Assembly (NCBI GenBank): GCA_022729755.1
Contig: DZAZ01000008.1
Location: 1-43,772, forward strand
Source: Helicobacter cetorum
GTDB lineage: Bacteria > Campylobacterota > Campylobacteria > Campylobacterales > BB28
DNA: 43,772 nt
Direction of reading: 5' to 3'
The translations under genes were made by a program, and so were the position numbers. Below are positions 29,422-40,710 of the stretch, one piece after another (the stretch's first letter is position 1; every line of letters begins with the position of its first letter). The notes under the pieces were generated by a model. The model was not told the DNA's origin. It worked only from the letters and a program-made list of their open reading frames with translations, and did not search any database.

Positions 29422-30108
29422 TTGGAGGATATAAATAAGTATAAAAATTTTACAATTTTATATGTTGAAGATAATGAACAAATTAGGAGACAAACTATTT
29501 ATATATTAAAAAAGTTTTTTAATAGTGTTTATGAAGCTAAAGATGGTAATTCTGGCTTAGAACTATATAAAAAATATAAGCCAAATATTGTTTTAACTGA
29601 TATTCATATGCCTGAACTTGGGGGTATGGAAATGGTTAAAGTAATTAGACAAAATGATAAAAATACAAAAATCATCGTACTTAGTGCTTATAGTGATAAA
29701 AAGTTTTTATTTGATGCAATTGAATTTGGAGTTGTAAGTTATATTGAAAAGCCATTGAATATTGATTTATTATTAAAAGCTTTTGATAAATCACTTTTTC
29801 AAATGCAAGAGGTATTGATAGAGTTAAATGATGAGTTTAGTTTTGATTTATCTAAACATTTACTTTTTAAAAATAAAGAAATTATTAAAATTACACAAAA
29901 AGAGATACATATTTTATTTATTTTATGTAGCAATAAAAATTCGATTGTTTCATATGAAGAGATACAAAATTATGTTTGGAAAAATAGCTTTGTAAGTGGT
30001 TCTACTCTAAGAACTACTATTAAATCCTTAAGAAAAAAATTACCATTAAATTCACTCCAAAATATTTCAGGTGTTGGATATAAAATAGTGACTAAAGAGT
30101 ATTTTTAA
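29422..30108 (+). CDS. OmpR-type response regulator
   Basis: A 228-residue regulator. Receiver 10-125 with VEDNE, Asp60 in LTDIHMPELGG, the Ser of LSAYS and Lys of YIEKPLN. Residues 135-228 form a winged helix (ITQKEIHILFIL, STLRTTIKSLRKKL, ISGVGYKIV). There is no kinase gene beside it, so its partner is unknown. The start is TTG after GGAG; a TATGAT box at 29383-29388 could be its promoter. Its last 17 bases overlap the end of the converging asnB-like gene. Confidence 0.87.
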   Translation: MEDINKYKNFTILYVEDNEQIRRQTIYILKKFFNSVYEAKDGNSGLELYKKYKPNIVLTDIHMPELGGMEMVKVIRQNDKNTKIIVLSAYSDKKFLFDAIEFGVVSYIEKPLNIDLLLKAFDKSLFQMQEVLIELNDEFSFDLSKHLLFKNKEIIKITQKEIHILFILCSNKNSIVSYEEIQNYVWKNSFVSGSTLRTTIKSLRKKLPLNSLQNISGVGYKIVTKEYF

Positions 30109-31813
30109 AATACTCCCTTGCCCATAACTCTAAATTTATCCATTGCCATATAAAAAATGAGTTTATCTTATCTCCTTTTTTATAATTATTAAATAACTTT
30201 TTAGCTATATCTACATCAATCCAACCTCTATCTTTAAAACTTTGTGAATTTAAGATTTCAATTATTAACGGTTCAAATTTAGTAGCTATCCATTCATTTT
30301 GTGGTGTTTGAATTGAACGTTTTTTTGCAAAAGCAACTTCTTTTGGTATATATTTGCTAGAAAATTCTCTAAGTATTAACTTTGTATTTTCAGCATCTAT
30401 TAATAAATTTGTTGGAAGTGAATAAGCAAACTCAACTAATCTATAATCCAAAAATGGAACTCTAAGCTCTTTTGAGTGCATCATAGACATTCTATCATTA
30501 AATCTCAATGCTCTTGGTACTTTTGTATAAAGTAAATCTGTCATAGCACTATTTTTAACATTTTCATTAAAATAATCTATTTTTGGAATTTGATAAGTTA
30601 AAATATTATCTAACTCCCTTGAAATTCCTTCTATTTTAGAATTTTGAGTTCCATCAATTGAGATTCCATCAAAAGTTAAAGAGTTATTTTTATATTTTTC
30701 ATATCCTAAAAAAATTTCATCAATTCCATTTCCATCTAATAAAACAGTTACACCATATTTATTTGCAAGTTCATATAAATAATAATATCCAATCACGGCG
30801 ATTCCACCAAAAGGTTCAGCTTGAATTTTTACAACATCATAAAGCTTTGAAAAAATATCTTCAAAAGTTAAATCTATAAAATGTTGAGAAAATCCAACTC
30901 TCTCAACTGCTTTTTCAATCCAAGCTTTTTCGCTAAAACCATTATATTCTTGAGTAAAAGTATGTAAATTTAATTTATATTTTTTTACTAAAGATAATAA
31001 TAGTGAAGAATCAAGTCCACCTGAAATATTTAATCCAACATTTACATCAGAAATTAAATGTTTATCAATTAAATCTAAAAACAATTCATCCAATTTATTA
31101 AATATTTCCTTTTTACTTAAACTGTTCTCAATTATATTATTTTCTATAAAATACCATCTATCAATTTTGTAATTAAATGAATCTAAATTAAAATTTAAAT
31201 AACACCCTGATTCTAATCGTTTTACATCTTCAAAAAAAGTGTATTCACCAAAATCATAATTTCCAGTTGTTAAATAAGTTTTAATTGTTTTTTTATCTTC
31301 TTTTATATTTTTTAAAAATATTAAAATAGGAGGAATTTCACTTGCAAAAATAAATTTATTTTTATTAAAAGTGTAATAAAGTTGTTTTATTCCAAATCTA
31401 TCCCTTGCAATAAAAACTATATTATTAATTTTATCAAATATAGCAAAAGCAAACATACCATTTAGCATACTTAACATATTTTTACCATATTTAATAAACA
31501 GTGCCAACAAAATTTCTGTATCACTATTTGTTTTGAACTCATACTCTATACACTTAGTTTTTAACTCTTTAAAATTAAAAATTTCACCGTTAAATATTAT
31601 CTCATAATTAGAACAATTTGAGACCATAGGTTGATTTGCACTATCACTTAAATCTATAATTTTTAATCTTGTATGTGCTAAAAACATTTTTTTTTGATTA
31701 TAAAAATTTATTTTTTGAAAATCTGGGCCTCTATGATAAATTTTATTTAAAGCTAAATTGCAATTATTTATATCAAAAGCTTCTTTTGAAGCTCCCCCTA
31801 ATATTCCACACAT
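30092..31813 (-). CDS. asnB: AsnB-like glutamine-dependent amidotransferase in the glycan cluster
   Basis: A 573-residue protein with both asparagine synthetase B domains. The N-terminal glutaminase has catalytic Cys2 (MCGILGG), YHRGPD and FNGEIFN. The synthetase domain has the ATP-binding loop ISGGLDSSLLL (264-270 core) and, later, MSMMHSKELRVPFLD. Class B synthetases make Asn from Asp, but in surface-polysaccharide loci close relatives amidate sugar carboxylates. Being the last gene of a nine-gene nonulosonic acid cluster, 3 bases after the SGNH gene, it may well have such a role. A housekeeping Asn synthetase cannot be excluded. Confidence 0.85.
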   Translation of the reverse strand: MCGILGGASKEAFDINNCNLALNKIYHRGPDFQKINFYNQKKMFLAHTRLKIIDLSDSANQPMVSNCSNYEIIFNGEIFNFKELKTKCIEYEFKTNSDTEILLALFIKYGKNMLSMLNGMFAFAIFDKINNIVFIARDRFGIKQLYYTFNKNKFIFASEIPPILIFLKNIKEDKKTIKTYLTTGNYDFGEYTFFEDVKRLESGCYLNFNLDSFNYKIDRWYFIENNIIENSLSKKEIFNKLDELFLDLIDKHLISDVNVGLNISGGLDSSLLLSLVKKYKLNLHTFTQEYNGFSEKAWIEKAVERVGFSQHFIDLTFEDIFSKLYDVVKIQAEPFGGIAVIGYYYLYELANKYGVTVLLDGNGIDEIFLGYEKYKNNSLTFDGISIDGTQNSKIEGISRELDNILTYQIPKIDYFNENVKNSAMTDLLYTKVPRALRFNDRMSMMHSKELRVPFLDYRLVEFAYSLPTNLLIDAENTKLILREFSSKYIPKEVAFAKKRSIQTPQNEWIATKFEPLIIEILNSQSFKDRGWIDVDIAKKLFNNYKKGDKINSFFIWQWINLELWAREYFKNTL

Positions 31814-31816
31814 TAA

Positions 31817-32824
31817 CTATTCCTTGGTATTGCATATTTTTTTATAAATTTCCATTTTAGTTTCAAAATTTTCTTTTGTAACAAAAAATTCATTATTTTT
31901 ATTCAACAATATATCAACAATATACTTCGTGGCATCTTTTGAAATATGAGTTGGATTTGTAAAAAATTCAGGTTTATTTGAAACATCAGGTATAAATGCT
32001 AAATCATAAAAACCACTAATATTAGTTAAAAATTCATTTCTTAAAGAAACTGTTAAATTATAATCCATTTTATTAAGATACTCTTGCATAAAAGTAGATG
32101 TAAAATATGTCACTTCTATATTATTTTTTTTAGAAAATTCATCAATTTTTGACAAATAATTCAGCATTTGTATTGAAAATTCTTGTCCATTTTTGATACT
32201 ATTCTTACTTTGTCTTGCGATATCTTTTAAGTTATTATCAAAATTTGTAATGTCTTTTTCTTTATACATTGCAAAACCATTTTCACTAACATAACTATTA
32301 AAATTTAAAAATACATTATTTAAAACCATTGTAACAGAGGCAAATAGCTTATCTATTGAAAATAATTTCAAATAATTAAGAATAAATTCATAATTAGAGT
32401 TTAAATCCATTACAAATCTATTTTCATAAACACTATTATTATCACTAAAACATTGAAAATCAATTAAATAATATATTTTATTAATATTCTCTATTTGCTT
32501 TTTAGATAAAGTATTCAAAAAATTATAAACACTAATAGGATGACCATAAATTGGGTATATATTTAATACATTATCATTTAATAATTCTGAATCTATTTTT
32601 CTTGACCTTGAAGTTCCAAAAACTAAACTATATTTGTCGCTATTTAATTTTTCAAGTAAAACTTTCGTACTTAATTGTGTTTGTTCAAATTTATAATTAT
32701 TAATACCATCAATTTTAATTAAATTAGTTTCATAATATGGATCTAAAATAATAACGATTAGAAAAATGAATACGGCAACAATGGATGTAAAAACAAAAAA
32801 ATTATATACAAATTTTTTTCCCAT
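31817..32824 (-). CDS. Membrane-anchored SGNH-hydrolase-like partner of the MBOAT protein
   Basis: A 335-residue protein with one N-terminal membrane helix (about 8-27) and a periplasmic body. FGTSRSRKID (Ser72) resembles the nucleophile block of SGNH proteins. Near the end, TNPTHIS offers the His (293), with Asn where the usual D-x-x-H motif has Asp. Such proteins accompany MBOAT acyltransferases (AlgJ, DltD and PatB-type partners) and move the acyl group to the final polymer. It starts 8 bases after the MBOAT gene. The role in O-acylation of a surface glycan is inferred from pairing. Confidence 0.65.
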   Translation of the reverse strand: MGKKFVYNFFVFTSIVAVFIFLIVIILDPYYETNLIKIDGINNYKFEQTQLSTKVLLEKLNSDKYSLVFGTSRSRKIDSELLNDNVLNIYPIYGHPISVYNFLNTLSKKQIENINKIYYLIDFQCFSDNNSVYENRFVMDLNSNYEFILNYLKLFSIDKLFASVTMVLNNVFLNFNSYVSENGFAMYKEKDITNFDNNLKDIARQSKNSIKNGQEFSIQMLNYLSKIDEFSKKNNIEVTYFTSTFMQEYLNKMDYNLTVSLRNEFLTNISGFYDLAFIPDVSNKPEFFTNPTHISKDATKYIVDILLNKNNEFFVTKENFETKMEIYKKICNTKE

Positions 32825-32832
32825 AAAAAACC

Positions 32833-34275
32833 TTAAAAATTAAAATATAAAAATTCACTATGTTTTTTTAGTTCAAAAATTGCATATAAAAACATTAAAG
32901 CTATTATAAAAGACTTCTTTCTTTCAGATAAATTATATCTAATAAAATAATCTTTATTGGGCAAAAAAGTTAAAATAAACCCAAATAAAACCCATATAAC
33001 TATAATATGAAAGTTCCCAAAAACTTGCCCAAATCCACTAAAAACTATACCATATTCTTTTAAAAAAAATAATTGTTTTTCTAAAGAAATAGGAAATGAT
33101 AAAATTGTAAATCCAAACATAGCTTTTAATATTCCTATAGCTTCCTGCAAATCTTTCGCTCTAAAAAACACCCACGAAACATTAATAAAGTTAAAAGTGA
33201 TAAACCAAGCTAAAAATCTATTCATCTTGAAACCTAATTCACTCCAAATTCGATGAATGACAATGGCAATTCCGTGTATTACTCCCCAAATAACAAACAT
33301 CCAACTAGCTCCGTGCCAAAGTCCACCTATCAAAAAAACACTAAAAAGATTTAAATAATTTCTATATTTTCCAATACGATTTCCACCAAGAGGAATATAA
33401 ATATAATCTTTTAAGAATCTACTTAAAGTTATATGCCATCTTCTCCAAAAATCTTGAATATCTAATGATTTGTATGGAGAATTAAAATTTATTGGTAATT
33501 TAATATTAAATAAAAGAGATGTACCAATCGCCATATCAGTATAACCACTAAAATCAAAATAAATTTGAAATGTATAACTAAGACTTGTTACCCATCCTTC
33601 CATAAAATTTAAAATATTTGCATTATCAAATCCATTTGTTGCCCATATTGCAAAAGTATCAGCAATCACAATTTTTTTAAATAATCCAATTGAAAATATA
33701 AACATACCTAAAGCTATATTTTTATAATTTTTAACTAAATTATTAACTCTACTAAATTGAGGCATCATTTCTTTATGATGAACAATTGGTCCAGCAATTA
33801 ATTGAGGGAAAAATGTAACAAAAAGTGCATAATTTAAAAAATCATACTCTTTTGTTTCTCCTCTATAACTATCAACTAAATAGGCAATTTGTTGAAAAGT
33901 AAAAAAACTAATTGCTAAAGGGAGAGTTAAATGGAGTAAATCCATTTGTGTATTTAATGTGTAATTCATATTTTTTATAAAAAAGTCTACATATTTAAAA
34001 TACCCCAATAATATTATATTAGCTAAAATTCCAATTGAAAGTATATATTTATTATTAATTTTTTTATTAAAGCTATTTCCAATTGTATAATTAAACATCA
34101 TAGAAGCTAATATTAAAGGTAAATAAATAGGATTCCACCAACTATAAAAAAATAAAGAAGAGAATACTAAAAATGACTTTCCTCCTAAAATCAATCTTTT
34201 TGAGTTTAAATAAAAGTAAATAAAAAATGTTATTGGCAAAAATAAAAATATAAATTCATAAGAGTTAAATAACAT
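32833..34275 (-). CDS. MBOAT-family membrane O-acyltransferase (AlgI-like)
   Basis: A 480-residue protein with about ten or more membrane helices. It has the MBOAT family core: DFSGYTDMAIG, QDFWRRWHITLSRFL, YIPLGG and the catalytic His in GLWHGASW. AlgI-type members take an acyl group, mostly acetyl, from a cytoplasmic donor across the membrane for transfer to a polysaccharide. It overlaps neuC by one base and is followed by its SGNH-like partner. In this cluster the likely target is the nonulosonic acid or the glycan that carries it. Confidence 0.88.
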   Translation of the reverse strand: MLFNSYEFIFLFLPITFFIYFYLNSKRLILGGKSFLVFSSLFFYSWWNPIYLPLILASMMFNYTIGNSFNKKINNKYILSIGILANIILLGYFKYVDFFIKNMNYTLNTQMDLLHLTLPLAISFFTFQQIAYLVDSYRGETKEYDFLNYALFVTFFPQLIAGPIVHHKEMMPQFSRVNNLVKNYKNIALGMFIFSIGLFKKIVIADTFAIWATNGFDNANILNFMEGWVTSLSYTFQIYFDFSGYTDMAIGTSLLFNIKLPINFNSPYKSLDIQDFWRRWHITLSRFLKDYIYIPLGGNRIGKYRNYLNLFSVFLIGGLWHGASWMFVIWGVIHGIAIVIHRIWSELGFKMNRFLAWFITFNFINVSWVFFRAKDLQEAIGILKAMFGFTILSFPISLEKQLFFLKEYGIVFSGFGQVFGNFHIIVIWVLFGFILTFLPNKDYFIRYNLSERKKSFIIALMFLYAIFELKKHSEFLYFNF

Positions 34276-35429
34276 TAGTAAGTGTTCCTTTTTTTTAATA
34301 TATTTAAATCAATTGTAGCTAAAACCTCTGCTATCTTTTCTCCAGCATCACCATAACCAAATATTTTATCTGATTTATATTTTTTATGAGATAATTGTCT
34401 TTTTATTTTTTCTAAAATATCGTGTCTTTCATAAGTTGAAAAAATAACATTTTCACCATGTTCTCTTCCTTCTTGTCTATCACCTATAATTACAGCAGGA
34501 GTTCCTAAAAATGAACACTCCCTAATAAAACTACTAGAATTTCCAACTACGCAAAAAGCATTATTTAAGACTCTTGCATAAATTTCAGGTGAAAAATTTT
34601 TAAAGTATTGAAAATTCTCCTGCATATTAAGTTCTCTAAATTTTCTAATACCACCTGCTACATCATCACTTCCAGCATCTATATTTGGCCAAAGTATTAC
34701 TTTTTGAATATTTTTTAACTCTTTTAGGGCATGTAAACTTTCTGTTATTTGTTCTCTACCTTGTCCATAACTAGTAGTAACAGGATGTTGAGAAAGTAAA
34801 ATATAAGGTTTTTCCCAATCAGTTTGGATTCCAACTCCACTATATTTTAGCATTAACTCATTATCTATATTCAAATTTTCATTTTTTAAAATATCCATTG
34901 CAGGACAACCAAAATTAAAGATATATTTTGGGTCTTCACCCATTTTTATAAGTCTCTTTTTAGATTCTTCAGTTGATGGAAAATGTAAATCGGAAAGTTT
35001 TGTAATAGCATGTCTAACTCTCTCATCAATATTTCCACTAATTTCACCACCTTGAATATGTACAAGTTTAATATTTAAATATGATGCAGCAATTGCTGTT
35101 GCCATAGTTTCAAACCTATCAGCAACAGTTACAACTAAATCTGGTTTTAAATCTTCAAACACATTTGAAAGTTCCATTATTCCAAGACCTGTTGATTTTG
35201 CTTGAGTAGCTAATGTTTCGCCCTCAATAACATAATAAAGTGAACGAATTGGAGAAAAACCATCTTTTTTTAAAACATCTACAGCTTTTCCAAATCTATC
35301 AAGCATCATAGAAGCTCCAACAACTATTTGAAGTTCAATATTTTCTCTTTTTTGAAGTGCTTTTAATAAATATTTAACCCTCCCATAATTTGCTCTACTT
35401 GCAACTACAACACATATTTTTCTTTTCAA
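34275..35429 (-). CDS. neuC: Hydrolysing UDP-sugar 2-epimerase (NeuC/LegG type)
   Basis: A 384-residue enzyme of the UDP-GlcNAc 2-epimerase fold. Hydrolysing members convert UDP-GlcNAc to ManNAc and UDP (NeuC), or UDP-di-N-acetylbacillosamine to its 2-epimer (LegG). Visible marks: VVVASRANYGRVKYLL at the start, TVADRFET, HIQGGEISGNIDERVRHAIT, and GNSSSFIREC near the end. The start is TTG overlapping the neuB stop (TTGA), so the two are coupled. No bacillosamine-type genes are nearby, which leans towards ManNAc as the product, but that is inference. Confidence 0.9.
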   Translation of the reverse strand: MKRKICVVVASRANYGRVKYLLKALQKRENIELQIVVGASMMLDRFGKAVDVLKKDGFSPIRSLYYVIEGETLATQAKSTGLGIMELSNVFEDLKPDLVVTVADRFETMATAIAASYLNIKLVHIQGGEISGNIDERVRHAITKLSDLHFPSTEESKKRLIKMGEDPKYIFNFGCPAMDILKNENLNIDNELMLKYSGVGIQTDWEKPYILLSQHPVTTSYGQGREQITESLHALKELKNIQKVILWPNIDAGSDDVAGGIRKFRELNMQENFQYFKNFSPEIYARVLNNAFCVVGNSSSFIRECSFLGTPAVIIGDRQEGREHGENVIFSTYERHDILEKIKRQLSHKKYKSDKIFGYGDAGEKIAEVLATIDLNILKKRNTY

Positions 35430-36430
35430 TATAAATCCTCTTTATTTAAAAACTCTTGTGCTTTTTTTGAAATTTTTAATTTTTTACCAATAACACTCTT
35501 ATACTCTTTTGTAGAGATTCCACAACCAGAGGGTTTTTTACTTTCTAAATCTTCAAAAGTTATTATATCACCTTCATTTAAATCTCTATTAATAGCCAAA
35601 GATTTTCCAAAAATTTTGTTCATTGTGGCAAATTCTAAATTATTATCTTTATCTATTAGATTTGAGTTTGCTTCATCTATGAATCTAATTCCTTCAACTA
35701 ATTGTTTAATTTCATCAATTTGGAGTGAAGATGTTGCATCTGGGCCAAACATTCGTTTATCAAAAACTGCATGTATCTCTATTAGTGAAGCACCAAGTGC
35801 AACAGCTGAAAGTGAGGCATAAATCATACCAGAATGGTCAGATAAACCTATTTTTTTATTGTATCTCTCTTGCATCTGCTTAATTACATTTAATCCAACT
35901 TTATTTGCAGGAGTTGGATACATAGATGTACATTGAAATAAACTAATACTAACTTTAAAAGATTCTAAAAATTTAACTGCTTCATCTAACTCTTTAAAAC
36001 TACTCATTCCTGAAGAGAGTAAAATTTCTTTTTTTGTTTTAGCAACTTTTTCTAATAATAAAAAATTTTCTACATCGCCTGAACTTATTTTATATCTTTT
36101 AATTCCCATCTCTTCCAATAAATCTACCGCTTCTAGTGAAAATGGTGTACTCATAAATTCAAGCCCCACATCTTCACAATGTTTTTTTATATCTCTCCAC
36201 TGCTCTTTTGTAAACTCCATTCGCTTCCAATAATCAAAACGAGTCTTATCTACATACGAAAAATTTACTCTAAACGGCTCTTTTTCGCTACTTTCGGCCT
36301 TTGCAATATGAGTTTGAAATTTTATTGCATCAATACCAGTCCTTGATAAGGCATCAATGTAAGAGTGTAGTATCCCTAAACTTCCATCGTGTGCTTGAGC
36401 AATTTCTGAAATTATAAAAGTTTTTTCCAA
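35426..36430 (-). CDS. neuB: Nonulosonic acid synthase (NeuB family) with SAF domain
   Basis: A 334-residue enzyme that condenses a 6-carbon amino sugar with phosphoenolpyruvate to form a 9-carbon acid (sialic, legionaminic or related). The barrel domain has SEIAQAHDG, AIKFQTH, STPFSLEAVDLL, KISSGD and GLSDHSG. The last 60 residues form the SAF (antifreeze-like) domain with LAINRDLNEGDIITFEDL. EIAQAHDG replaces the more common E-x-G-x-N-H-x-G, so this is a divergent subtype and the exact product should not be assumed. The start is TTG after GGTGA. It lies between the PhyH and neuC genes. Confidence 0.9.
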   Translation of the reverse strand: MEKTFIISEIAQAHDGSLGILHSYIDALSRTGIDAIKFQTHIAKAESSEKEPFRVNFSYVDKTRFDYWKRMEFTKEQWRDIKKHCEDVGLEFMSTPFSLEAVDLLEEMGIKRYKISSGDVENFLLLEKVAKTKKEILLSSGMSSFKELDEAVKFLESFKVSISLFQCTSMYPTPANKVGLNVIKQMQERYNKKIGLSDHSGMIYASLSAVALGASLIEIHAVFDKRMFGPDATSSLQIDEIKQLVEGIRFIDEANSNLIDKDNNLEFATMNKIFGKSLAINRDLNEGDIITFEDLESKKPSGCGISTKEYKSVIGKKLKISKKAQEFLNKEDLY

Positions 36431-36450: not shown

Positions 36451-37503
36451 CTATTTTACTATTTCATAATTTTTTAAAAATATTTTTTGTAATTTACTCA
36501 TTTTATTAACTTCTTTTTCATCTATTAGTTGATTTTTAGATGTTTTATTCCTTTTCTCAAATGATAATCCTCTAAAATTAACTCTTATAGTATCTCTATA
36601 TTTATTCTCTTTATCTCCAAATTTATCCCAATTAGGACCTTTATGAAAACCATTAACATCAACAATTGCAACTGTTGCTTTTTTTCCATAAAAAGTAACC
36701 CAATTTTCTCTTGGATACTCTTTCTCTACCTCTTTATCACTTATCCTTCCATAATTTTCATTAATTCCTAAGTCAAAATTAGTTCTAGGTATGCAAGATT
36801 TCACATCGTGTTTATGAGAATTTGGAACAAATGTTAATGGTCCCCTTTTTCCATCTATATCTATTAAGTGTACAAAAACTTGAATAACATCATGCTCATC
36901 ACTATCTTTATGAAAGTTACTTGCTTCAATTGGTTCATCTTGTGGAAAATTTCTCATTACAAGAGAACTATGTTCTGGAACATATCCTAAATAGTTAGTT
37001 ACAATTTTTAGAATAGATTCATTAAAAAATATTTCTATAACATTTGATATATTTAGTAAAGGATTTTCTATAATGATATTTTGCTCAAATGCTTCAATTT
37101 CTTCATAAGAAAAGCCATCTAATGTAGGAATCCTTCCGTGTGAAACATTATAACCAGCACTGAAATTAATTTTTAAATTTTTAAATAATTTATCAGCTTT
37201 TTCATCTATCAAGTTAATTAATTCATCACTAAAAAAATTATTAATCACTGTATAGCCTTGCTTTTTTAAATTATCTATATGAGTTTGTTCAAACTCGTTT
37301 GGTTCAAAAAGATTAATACTATCTTTAAAAACTTTTCTATTTTCTCTATTTGCTATTTTTTTAGATAAAAATCTTCTAATTTTACATATACAACTATAAA
37401 GTGCTGGAAAACTTCTAATTGTTTTTAAAATTGGGTTTGGTTTACTATTTGGATTATACTTTACAGCACTTTTTAACTCTTGTATTCTCTCTTGACTTAA
37501 CAT
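36451..37503 (-). CDS. PhyH-like Fe(II)/2-oxoglutarate dioxygenase in the glycan cluster
   Basis: A 350-residue protein of the phytanoyl-CoA dioxygenase superfamily. The iron triad is visible: His198-x-Asp200 in NFHKDSD and distal His287 in VNGFHKGP, with Arg303 or Arg307 (YRDTIRVNFR) to hold 2-oxoglutarate. GPLTFVPNSHKHD is a typical family strand-turn. These enzymes hydroxylate many substrates. Its position between the methyltransferase and neuB genes, 20 bases from neuB, points to a modified sugar as substrate. The first 60 residues are basic and not part of the core. ATG with a perfect GGAGGAA upstream. Confidence 0.83.
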   Translation of the reverse strand: MLSQERIQELKSAVKYNPNSKPNPILKTIRSFPALYSCICKIRRFLSKKIANRENRKVFKDSINLFEPNEFEQTHIDNLKKQGYTVINNFFSDELINLIDEKADKLFKNLKINFSAGYNVSHGRIPTLDGFSYEEIEAFEQNIIIENPLLNISNVIEIFFNESILKIVTNYLGYVPEHSSLVMRNFPQDEPIEASNFHKDSDEHDVIQVFVHLIDIDGKRGPLTFVPNSHKHDVKSCIPRTNFDLGINENYGRISDKEVEKEYPRENWVTFYGKKATVAIVDVNGFHKGPNWDKFGDKENKYRDTIRVNFRGLSFEKRNKTSKNQLIDEKEVNKMSKLQKIFLKNYEIVK

Positions 37504-38547
37504 TTATTCCTCCTTTTTTAATAGGATATGAATTTCTGAAGAAGTTTCTTTTTTATCTAACTGAAGTTGTAATGTATCAATTAAGGGTAAAAATTTTTTA
37601 TCAAAATTATTTAATGTATTTAAAGGTTGATTATTTTTTTCCATCATCACTCTTAAACTTCTATATAAATCGTGAATATCTGAACTAAACCACCATTCAG
37701 CTTTAATTTTAAAATTATACATATTTGCCAAATAATTTAGAGATTCTTTTGTATAAAGATGAGTGTGACCACCATATAAAACTCTCTCAAAAACATCAGG
37801 AAAAGCTAGTTGAAAATATGTACTTAAATTAAATAAAGGTACAGCTAAATAGAAATACTTAATATTTTTATTTTCATTTATAGCTTCAAAAAAAGAAGTT
37901 GGAGATTGTAAATGTTCTAATACCATAATTGCTGATAGCACATCAACTTTTGCATTTTTTATATAATTTATAGTATCATTTAACTCAATAGCTTTTAATT
38001 TATTAGTTTTTAAAATTTCATTTCCAATATCTACTTGACTTTTAGAAACTTCAATTCCTTCAACTTTCTCAATATTAAATTCTTTATACATAGCATATAC
38101 AAGATGACCTACTCCACATCCAACATCTAAAAATGAACTCTTTTGTATATTTACATTATCTTCTTTCAAAGATTCCAATAAAAAATTAACTTTAGGTGCA
38201 TAAACATTTTTAACTTTATTTAAATAGCTTTCTATATCTATTCTTTGATACTCTCTTCTATAATCATTTGGATTATCTTTTGTGTAATTAAACTCCAAAA
38301 ACTCATCTGTATCTTCAAATCCACCATTTAAATGTCCACAAGTTTTACATTGATAATACTCTATTCCTTGTCTTATCAAAGAGATTTCATTTAAATTACT
38401 ATTACATATTTTACAATTTAATCTTTTGGGTTGACATTTATAAAAATTTATTGACTTTTTTTCTTCTTTTACTAATTTATCATTTTGTTCTGAAAAATAA
38501 CTTTTAATAGCTAAAATATCTCCTATACTTTTTCCATATTTTTTCAT
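37504..38547 (-). CDS. Zinc-ribbon SAM-dependent methyltransferase
   Basis: A 347-residue protein. Residues 45-70 hold two CxxC pairs (CKIC at 45-48, CKTC at 67-70) forming a zinc ribbon, followed by a class I methyltransferase with SAM-binding motif FLDVGCGVGHL (139-149), IEVSKSQVD and VLEHLQSP. Zinc-ribbon plus methyltransferase is the layout of many sugar-methylating enzymes in polysaccharide loci. It overlaps neuA by 4 bases (ATGA) and its stop lies directly next to the PhyH start, so it is fully embedded in the cluster. Substrate unknown; a sugar or glycan is inferred. Confidence 0.82.
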   Translation of the reverse strand: MKKYGKSIGDILAIKSYFSEQNDKLVKEEKKSINFYKCQPKRLNCKICNSNLNEISLIRQGIEYYQCKTCGHLNGGFEDTDEFLEFNYTKDNPNDYRREYQRIDIESYLNKVKNVYAPKVNFLLESLKEDNVNIQKSSFLDVGCGVGHLVYAMYKEFNIEKVEGIEVSKSQVDIGNEILKTNKLKAIELNDTINYIKNAKVDVLSAIMVLEHLQSPTSFFEAINENKNIKYFYLAVPLFNLSTYFQLAFPDVFERVLYGGHTHLYTKESLNYLANMYNFKIKAEWWFSSDIHDLYRSLRVMMEKNNQPLNTLNNFDKKFLPLIDTLQLQLDKKETSSEIHILLKKEE

Positions 38548-39239
38548 TTTTGACCTTGTAATAACTTTTTTGCTTTTTTGAAATCTTCAATAGTATCAAT
38601 ATTTACACTTTTTTCTTTTGGCATTACAAAAGGAAGTGTTTTTTCAGTCATAAGTGATTCACTTTTTAAAAATAGTTCAGTTTTTATCATATAAATAGCG
38701 CCATTTGCTAAATAAGCTTTTGGTAAATCTTGCCTTCTTGTAAATGGATACTTGTCATTTATGGCTCCTTGTAAGTAGCCATCTGAATTTACAATATAAG
38801 CTTTTAATATTTCAATATCAGGTGAAACAACAGAAATTAAAGCATTTGCATCTTGTTCTAAAAAAAACTTAACTGCATTATCAATATCATTACTATCTCT
38901 ACAAGGAGATGTTGGCTGTAAAATTACAACTATATCAAAATTTTTACCTTTAGATGATAATTCATTTAAAACTTGAGTTATTACAGGCATCGTTGAAGCT
39001 TTGTCAGTTGCTAACTCTTTCGGTCTATTTATAATTTCAGCACCAAATTTTTTTGAAATTTCTAAAATCTCTTTATCTTCACTTGAAACTATCGTTGTAT
39101 CAATTAAATTAGAATTAAGTGAAGCTTCTATTGTATAAGCTATTAAGGGTTTTCCATTTAAATCTTTAATATTTTTTCTTGGAACTCCTTTTGAGCCTCC
39201 TCTTGCAGGAATTATTGCTAAAATTTTATATTTTTTCAT
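38544..39239 (-). CDS. neuA: CMP-nonulosonic acid synthetase (NeuA family)
   Basis: A 231-residue cytidylyltransferase that activates a 9-carbon acid with CTP. The signature IIPARGGSKGVPRKNIKDLN is at the N-terminus. LQPTSPCRDSNDIDNA and the YPFTRRQDLP region match the family. I use the second ATG (39239), which gives MKKYKILAIIPARGG, the usual family start. An ATG 12 bases upstream is possible. Either way the start lies inside the end of the glycosyltransferase gene, so the two are coupled. With NeuC and NeuB it completes the route from a UDP-sugar to a CMP-activated acid. Confidence 0.9.
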   Translation of the reverse strand: MKKYKILAIIPARGGSKGVPRKNIKDLNGKPLIAYTIEASLNSNLIDTTIVSSEDKEILEISKKFGAEIINRPKELATDKASTMPVITQVLNELSSKGKNFDIVVILQPTSPCRDSNDIDNAVKFFLEQDANALISVVSPDIEILKAYIVNSDGYLQGAINDKYPFTRRQDLPKAYLANGAIYMIKTELFLKSESLMTEKTLPFVMPKEKSVNIDTIEDFKKAKKLLQGQK

Positions 39240-40668
39240 AACTATCTTCATTTTTTTGTAATTCTAAAATTTTCTCTAATCCAATGGATATGTGTTTTTC
39301 AAATTTATCATATAGCGGAAATCCACGTTGATAGAAGAAATTTATCATTTTATTGTTTTCTTCCTCTTTCTCTTCATTTGAAATTTCAAAATTTAAAAAA
39401 TCTTCAATTTCATAAAATATATTTACCATATTATTTAATGATTTAATTAGCTTTGAATCTGTGTATATATAATCGTTTGTTAATAAAAAATATTTTTTAC
39501 CAAATGCTACAGCTTCAAATAAAGTTGTACCACCAAAACCTATTATTAACTCTGATTTTTGTATTAAATCTTTGCCACTAATACTACTATTCAAAAGTAT
39601 AACATTATTTAATGATAGAATTTTTTTATAAAATGAAATTCCTCTCATACCATATCCAAGAGGATGCTCTTTTACCACTAAAATATATCCTAGTGGCAAA
39701 GATTTAGAAATATTAAAGATAATTTCTAATTGATTCATAAAATATGGTGCTCTTGAAGACGTTGAGGCTTCTGGTTGAATTTGAAGTGGAAAATAGAATA
39801 TTTTTAATCCATATTTTATATTATTAGTTTCAATAAATTTTTTAGCAAATAATAAAATAAATCTATTATATGCTCTATTTAGGTTTGCAAATAATTTATT
39901 GCAAATTGAAGGTTTATCAATATTAAGAAACTTCCTTATTTTTTGATTTTTATTTTCATAACCAAATAACATAAATTTTAACATATTAGCATTAAGAATA
40001 TTGGGAGATATTATTCCTAAAAAACCTTTTTTAACATCTTTTCGTTTTTTTGTATACTCTTTAAAATGTGCTTTATTATCATAATTTTTTATATGTTCTT
40101 TTTTAGAATCCTCAATTACCTCTTTTTTAGTAATATAATTATTTAAAGGAGTACATCCTAAACCTTCATTGATATAGCAAGTTTGATTATCAACTATCCA
40201 ATGTGGATGAAAAGCTAAACATTTTTTATTAAAATGTTCAGAAAGTAAATATCCAAGTGTAGAAATAAAATTATCTGCATAGCCTCCAAAAACTATTTTT
40301 GTATTTGGGATATATTGTTCAATAAATAAAGTATAACTCTTAATAAAAAACATCATATCATCATAAGATAAACTTTTATTTCCCAAAGTTTTTTCAATTC
40401 CAAAATAGTAATTAGATATAAATCTTTCCGTTACAATGGCTCTCATAAAATTCACATTTTTATATTTATTTTGAAATTCATGTATTGAATAACTTTCTAT
40501 ATAACCAAAGTTTTTTTCAAGAAAATTTTCATAAGATTCTGAATTTAAAATATTACTTTTTCTATAAGTTAATATTTTATACTTAATATTTCTATTTAAA
40601 TGTTTGGCTACTTCACTCAAAGTATTATCTAATGAATAAGAAAAATTTGAAATAAATAAAATATCCAT
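39226..40668 (-). CDS. Capsule-type (Kdo/sialyl-like) GT-B glycosyltransferase, tentative
   Basis: A 480-residue cytoplasmic protein. Its C-terminal half resembles the Capsule_synth group (KpsS/LipB-like): FYFPLQIQPEAST (about 291-303), VVKEHPLG and IIGFGGTTLFEAVAFGKK, a nucleotide-sugar binding pattern of GT-B enzymes. The N-terminal half is poorly conserved. It heads the cluster, just before neuA, so it is the best candidate to transfer the CMP-activated sugar or to build the acceptor. Start: ATG at 40668 with GGAG 10 bases upstream; a TTG 15 bases earlier contains that GGAG. No other sialyltransferase family is visible in the cluster. Confidence 0.65.
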   Translation of the reverse strand: MDILFISNFSYSLDNTLSEVAKHLNRNIKYKILTYRKSNILNSESYENFLEKNFGYIESYSIHEFQNKYKNVNFMRAIVTERFISNYYFGIEKTLGNKSLSYDDMMFFIKSYTLFIEQYIPNTKIVFGGYADNFISTLGYLLSEHFNKKCLAFHPHWIVDNQTCYINEGLGCTPLNNYITKKEVIEDSKKEHIKNYDNKAHFKEYTKKRKDVKKGFLGIISPNILNANMLKFMLFGYENKNQKIRKFLNIDKPSICNKLFANLNRAYNRFILLFAKKFIETNNIKYGLKIFYFPLQIQPEASTSSRAPYFMNQLEIIFNISKSLPLGYILVVKEHPLGYGMRGISFYKKILSLNNVILLNSSISGKDLIQKSELIIGFGGTTLFEAVAFGKKYFLLTNDYIYTDSKLIKSLNNMVNIFYEIEDFLNFEISNEEKEEENNKMINFFYQRGFPLYDKFEKHISIGLEKILELQKNEDSYEKI

Positions 40669-40710
40669 CAAGTAAATCTCCAAAAAAATTTAAAAAAAGA
40701 GTATCAAAAT

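Follow-up and report, generated by a model that had tools for sequence, protein, structure and literature searches.

A PhyH-family oxygenase gene associated with nonulosonic acid synthesis genes in Helicobacter cetorum: a candidate sugar-tailoring hydroxylase

What does a gene for a Fe(II)/2-oxoglutarate oxygenase do among the genes for a sialic-type sugar in Helicobacter cetorum? The window, that is, the whole stretch of DNA analysed here, comprises 43,772 nucleotides (contig DZAZ01000008.1). A sequence-only reading had described a PhyH protein with an intact His-x-Asp...His triad at residues 198, 200 and 287, encoded between a methyltransferase and neuB. Both points were confirmed: the three residues occur at those positions, and the gene lies 0 bp from the methyltransferase and 20 bp from neuB. 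The genes of the locus and the codons of the predicted active site are the following.

39226..40683, minus strand: putative glycosyltransferase (NF046086, 35.5 bits, below the cut-off of 200)
38544..39251, minus strand: neuA, CMP-nonulosonate synthetase, 235 aa (PF02348, 101 bits; nearest structure the CMP-Neu5Ac synthetase 6ifd)
37504..38547, minus strand: class I SAM methyltransferase with an N-terminal CxxC...CxxC (PF13489, 51.8 bits; sister-species island copy 81% identical)
36451..37503, minus strand: PhyH-family Fe(II)/2-oxoglutarate oxygenase, 350 aa (PF05721, 28.4 bits; AlphaFold pTM 0.81; Foldseek E 6e-9)
36910..36912, minus strand: codon of H198, iron ligand of the HxD motif (invariant in alignments A8 and A10)
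36904..36906, minus strand: codon of D200, iron ligand of the HxD motif (invariant in A8 and A10)
36643..36645, minus strand: codon of H287, distal iron ligand (invariant in A8 and A10)
36595..36597, minus strand: codon of R303, the expected 2-oxoglutarate-binding arginine (invariant in A8)
35426..36430, minus strand: neuB, nonulosonic acid synthase, 334 aa (PF03102, 233 bits; nearest structures SiaC/NeuB)
34275..35429, minus strand: neuC, hydrolysing UDP-sugar 2-epimerase, 384 aa (TIGR03568, 379 bits, cut-off 235.9)
32833..34275, minus strand: MBOAT O-acyltransferase (PF03062, 131.6 bits)
31817..32824, minus strand: DltD/AlgX-like (SGNH-like) MBOAT partner, assigned by position only (no Pfam match)
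30092..31813, minus strand: asparagine-synthase-like amidotransferase, end of the gene run (TIGR01536, 377.7 bits)

The minus-strand order is thus glycosyltransferase-like gene, neuA, methyltransferase, PhyH, neuB, neuC, MBOAT, DltD/AlgX-like and asnB-like, and from 40683 down to 30092 neighbouring genes overlap or are separated by no more than 20 bp. No terminator-like site was seen between PhyH and its neighbours. Promoter- and terminator-like matches were no commoner than in shuffled sequences, so nothing argues for separate transcription, and we infer that the run is read as one transcript. The DltD/AlgX-like gene has a 71% identical copy adjoining an MBOAT gene in the sister species. The glycosyltransferase has a relative that adjoins neuB on another contig of the same genome (C14; phmmer score of 44.8 bits to the C14 protein), and two more NeuB genes are found elsewhere in that genome. 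The asnB-like amidotransferases of O-antigen loci have been proposed to amidate sugar carboxylates, and the enzyme encoded at 30092..31813 could do the same.

The three families of the sialic acid branch (NeuC, NeuB and NeuA) were all present in the gene run, each above its family cut-off (TIGR03568, PF03102 and PF02348). NeuB scored 300 bits against the N-acetylneuraminate equivalog TIGR03569, below its cut-off of 399.65, so the product need not be N-acetylneuraminate itself; NeuA, a good family match, also fell short of its own equivalog cut-off. A legionaminic acid pathway was considered and rejected, as the best LegB (TIGR04180) scores in the two genomes of the genus were 150 and 153 bits against a cut-off of 475. 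Since NeuC matched its equivalog, no LegB was found and the nearest solved structures of NeuC are human GNE and the hydrolysing NeuC/LegG enzymes, the simplest reading of these sequences would be that NeuC and NeuB convert UDP-GlcNAc to a Neu5Ac-like acid.

The PhyH ORF has an ATG start with a good ribosome-binding site (AAAAAAGGAGGAATAA) in front of it. Purifying selection acts on the gene, and a chance ORF can be dismissed, since the copy in the sister species shows 75% identity and a dN/dS of about 0.29. The Pfam-A scan (E 0.01) returned PF05721 alone, over residues 80-288 and with 28.4 bits, where the gathering cut-off is 22; the sequence family of KdoO, a sugar oxygenase compared below, was not matched (we take this family to be PF11004). 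No Rieske family was found by the Pfam scan in the PhyH protein and nine neighbouring proteins, the animal hydroxylase CMAH being a Rieske iron-sulphur enzyme with a metallo-lactamase-like domain. NCBIfam assigned no narrower family, its sole match being ectoine hydroxylase (EctD), an identity that we have rejected (TIGR02408, 19.2 bits against an equivalog cut-off of 336.5). The triad was invariant across the alignments with distant relatives, and together with R303 also in A8, which holds the protein with its viral and plasmid relatives.

The protein was modelled with AlphaFold. A run with 2 sequences gave a pLDDT of 36 and was discarded in favour of a model built with 23 homologues, which showed the PhyH fold (pLDDT 75.7, pTM 0.81). 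Foldseek returned 304 PDB matches at E <= 0.001 with PhyH-type oxygenases on top (proline hydroxylase H11, AsqJ, ColD, SnoK, GriE and EctD, E from 6e-9), so that AlphaFold and Foldseek agree on the double-stranded beta-helix of the PhyH family. None of these matches is sugar-nucleotide specific, so the substrate cannot be read from the fold. Structure prediction, which the sequence-only reading had suggested as a check, thus supported the enzyme class but did not reveal what the enzyme acts on.

We have then compared the locus with that of the sister species, a Campylobacteraceae MAG (G001, contig JADGEE010000007.1), in which the PhyH gene directly precedes neuB and neuC. The neuA, methyltransferase and glycosyltransferase genes lie on the same contig at ~22 kb, separated from PhyH by inserted genes of the heptose and radical-SAM types. 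This displacement indicates that PhyH-neuB-neuC is the unit that stays together. Between the two species, dN/dS was 0.29 for PhyH, 0.12 for neuB and 0.10 for neuC. The sister-species island also carries two tandem MBOAT and DltD/AlgX-like pairs adjoining PhyH (L006:3574-8471), where the window has one pair, and the MBOATs of the tandem pairs share long near-identical stretches.

Close homologues were confined to the sister species. A scan of the genome collection returned this species alone, the 399 genomes of the order gave only it and weak matches at 1e-3, and no close homologue was found at 1e-3 in 397 genomes of the phylum or, by direct search, in phages or plasmids. More distant relatives were recovered by a motif-based scan of viral contigs (L038 and L039), followed by two scans that gave 13 and 37 loci. 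Viral PhyH proteins were clustered at 80% identity and groups with usable flanks were kept; the NeuB and NeuA profiles were built from bacterial proteins only. NeuB was encoded within 6.2 kb of PhyH in 13 of the 21 non-redundant viral groups, a NeuA-like gene was present at up to a similar distance (about 6 kb) in 6 more, and 2 had neither. None of the four control groups had a NeuB or NeuA-like neighbour. The corresponding Fisher p values (0.04 for NeuB alone, 0.001 for NeuB or NeuA) are indicative only, as the control comprises just four groups, the flank on one side is shorter than 2 kb in most control loci and the groups are not phylogenetically independent. In viral loci with a NeuA-labelled cytidylyltransferase and no NeuB, the former could act on another sugar.

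Across the loci, PhyH often touches NeuB, NeuA or a sialyltransferase-like gene. In L039 and L071, NeuB shares one base with PhyH, and a sialyltransferase-like gene and then NeuA come after the pair; in L039 the gene after PhyH has a weak match to the sialyltransferase CST-I, with the NeuA-like gene next. NeuC had no match in any viral PhyH locus scanned. An FkbM-type methyltransferase gene directly follows PhyH in three viral loci (L042, L043 and L048).

Two further observations were made on the viral contigs. NeuB, NeuA and a sialyltransferase-like protein with a GxGPS motif occur together and without a NeuC match in L071:7183-11922, L041, L042, L043, L045, L050, L056, L057, L062 and L067-L070, which suggests that these viruses synthesise nonulosonic acids from precursors of the host and attach them. 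Metallo-beta-lactamase-fold proteins of 443 residues (PF13483) recur in viral NeuB-NeuA-PhyH clusters (L041:3074-4405, L045:3283-4614 and L067:2988-4319); they are presumably similar to the metallo-lactamase-like part of the animal enzyme CMAH.

A comparable arrangement was found in bacteria. On plasmid pTK1 of Sphingobium sp. TKS, the genes of a complete pseudaminic acid pathway (pseB, pseC, pseF, pseG, pseH and pseI) are followed by an acyltransferase gene and then by a PhyH gene of the same broad family. The profile search of Campylobacterota gave 12 PhyH places in 10 genomes, or 7 places once the window locus, the sister locus and three places grouping with ectoine hydroxylase are left out. 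NeuB was encoded within 8 kb at 3 of these 7 (chance ~2e-4, from NeuB counts per genome). In genome G260, a further PhyH gene lies close to NeuA and NeuC, with NeuB 10 kb away, and the NeuA-like protein of G386 scores closer to Kdo cytidylyltransferases. PhyH relatives without nonulosonate genes were also found (L007, L034, L035, L080, L103 and L104), that of L035 adjoining glycosyltransferases.

Some of the bacterial loci are of separate interest. The PhyH-like protein of a Mesorhizobium sp. 131-3-5 plasmid (L103:5503-6477) is encoded just upstream of nodS, nodA and nodC and has relatives on other rhizobial plasmids, which raises the question of a part in Nod factor chemistry. The window genome (G000) encodes a second, distant PhyH on contig C57 (L007:9865-10716), where a methyltransferase, a radical SAM protein and a protein like class III aminotransferases are also encoded. 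In the tree this PhyH neighbours L105 and L106, whose genes are found close to NeuB or NeuA/NeuC. In genome G295, a protein of 650 residues with a PhyH-like part (L107:7734-9686) adjoins two NeuA-like and two NeuB genes.

Among the search profiles, A3 matched EctD strongly through row L004, itself ectoine-hydroxylase-like (128.7 bits to PhyH, grouping with L109 and L110), and profile A4 was used in its place. With the sister species set aside, phmmer matched the window protein best to PhyH proteins of viral nonulosonate clusters (L067, L041 and L042, 52-54 bits), compared with 22 for ectoine hydroxylase and 25 for another viral PhyH (L040). The identity to relatives outside the sister species was 14-29%, and function therefore need not be common to all of them. 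In the tree, the window protein and its sister formed a pair on a long branch whose place was not resolved, a clade with the viral group being allowed (p-AU 0.453). The PhyH proteins of Sphingobium and of G386 and G260 fell elsewhere, so it seems that several PhyH lineages acquired or kept a link with nonulosonate genes. A phylogeny placing the protein with enzymes of another pathway would have spoken against the sequence-only reading; the nearest relatives outside the genus were instead those of nonulosonate clusters, with the tree leaving the place open.

Taken together, these data support, with a probability of about 0.58, the view that the window PhyH is a tailoring hydroxylase of the nonulosonic acid made by NeuC, NeuB and NeuA. 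The protein would be a cytoplasmic Fe(II)/2-oxoglutarate oxygenase holding iron through H198, D200 and H287 and 2-oxoglutarate through R303, and would convert one O2 to succinate, CO2 and a hydroxylated sugar. Its substrate would most likely be the free, CMP-activated or lipid-/glycan-linked nonulosonic acid rather than ManNAc. The adjacent methyltransferase, a possible O-methylation partner, may cap the new hydroxyl, and the modified sugar would then be transferred and further decorated through MBOAT acylation and asnB-type amidation. The FkbM-type gene after PhyH in three viral loci and the different methyltransferase gene before PhyH in the window are suggestive only of hydroxylation followed by O-methylation. 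We infer the activity, substrate, stage and position alike; for the position, the 3-deoxy carbon, by analogy with KdoO, is a tentative choice, the N-acyl group coming next. That bacteria and phages have a non-Rieske route to N-glycolyl-type sialic acid, with PhyH hydroxylating a nonulosonic acid made de novo, or its CMP form, at the N-acyl group, we consider unlikely.

The neighbourhood alone would leave the substrate as the sugar or as something to which the sugar is attached. PhyH could accordingly oxidise another component of the same surface glycan (another sugar, an N-acyl or O-acyl group, or the lipid carrier) and share one glycan island with neuB, a possibility to which we give some weight. 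The island does hold glycosyltransferase, MBOAT and asnB-like genes, and related PhyH genes occur in islands without NeuB (L080 and L007, besides L035 by its glycosyltransferases and L103 by the nod genes). However, the linkage is specifically to NeuB/NeuA across phages, the Sphingobium plasmid and Campylobacterota, with the genes often touching, and PhyH-neuB-neuC stayed together while the rest of the sister-species island changed.

The sequence-only reading had proposed oxidation of a sialic-type sugar or its precursor. The sugar itself is the best-supported reading, given the recurrence of PhyH with NeuB/NeuA in phages, the Sphingobium plasmid and Campylobacterota, but the precursor part fares less well. 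Hydroxylation of ManNAc, or of another 2-acetamido sugar, before NeuB is quite improbable: although the hydrolysing epimerase NeuC of the gene run should release ManNAc or a similar sugar, the viral PhyH loci scanned gave no NeuC match, and the Sphingobium pathway is pseudaminic (PseBCFGHI) and starts from different precursors. The molecule common to the clusters is therefore the nine-carbon acid and not ManNAc. Least probable of all, in our view, is that PhyH has nothing to do with the sugar, being either a common lipid- or CoA-acting member of the family or a passenger gene. The family is indeed broad, the nearest structures are those of enzymes for amino acids and natural products, and the searches gave no close relative of characterised function; tight gene packing, linkage in the sister species, purifying selection and the recurrent neighbourhood all stand against a sugar-unrelated role.

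Although PhyH is a known enzyme family, that phages and bacteria alike associate it with the synthesis of nonulosonic acids appears to be unreported, as the open-access papers searched contained no report of such a link. If confirmed biochemically, the window PhyH would be a new kind of sialic acid tailoring enzyme. Oxygen-dependent tailoring enzymes for sialic-acid-type sugars would then be widespread in bacteria and phages, hydroxylated or O-methylated nonulosonic acids would be explained, and a second enzyme class would stand beside the animal one. It would also suggest that phages carry their own sugar-tailoring chemistry, make it testable whether bacteria produce Neu5Gc-like sugars, and offer a tool for making modified sialic acids.

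The gene run compares with known systems at several levels. It shares NeuC, NeuB and NeuA with the NeuBCA/PseI/LegI nonulosonic acid clusters, in which the known tailoring genes encode acetyl-, formyl- and methyltransferases. With the PhyH oxygenases H11, GriE, EctD and SnoK, the window protein has in common the fold, the HxD...H motif and the 2-oxoglutarate arginine, at 11-18% identity (best Foldseek E 6e-9 to 2e-8); we take their substrates, partly from entry titles, to be amino acids, ectoine and polyketide glycosides. Animal CMAH hydroxylates sialic acid at the CMP stage (PMC6724515); the same type of reaction is proposed for the window PhyH, but the enzyme class differs. The sequence-only reading had held that direct oxidation of a sialic-type sugar in bacteria would be uncommon, a view to be qualified by a precedent on a related sugar, KdoO, the 2-oxoglutarate oxygenase of Yersinia and Burkholderia that oxidises the 3-deoxy position of Kdo (PMC8533242). 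KdoO acts after transfer of the sugar to lipid A, and the window PhyH lacks a match to its family; like KdoO, the window PhyH would use Fe(II), 2-oxoglutarate and O2 on a bacterial 3-deoxy-2-ulosonic acid in the tailoring of a surface glycan.
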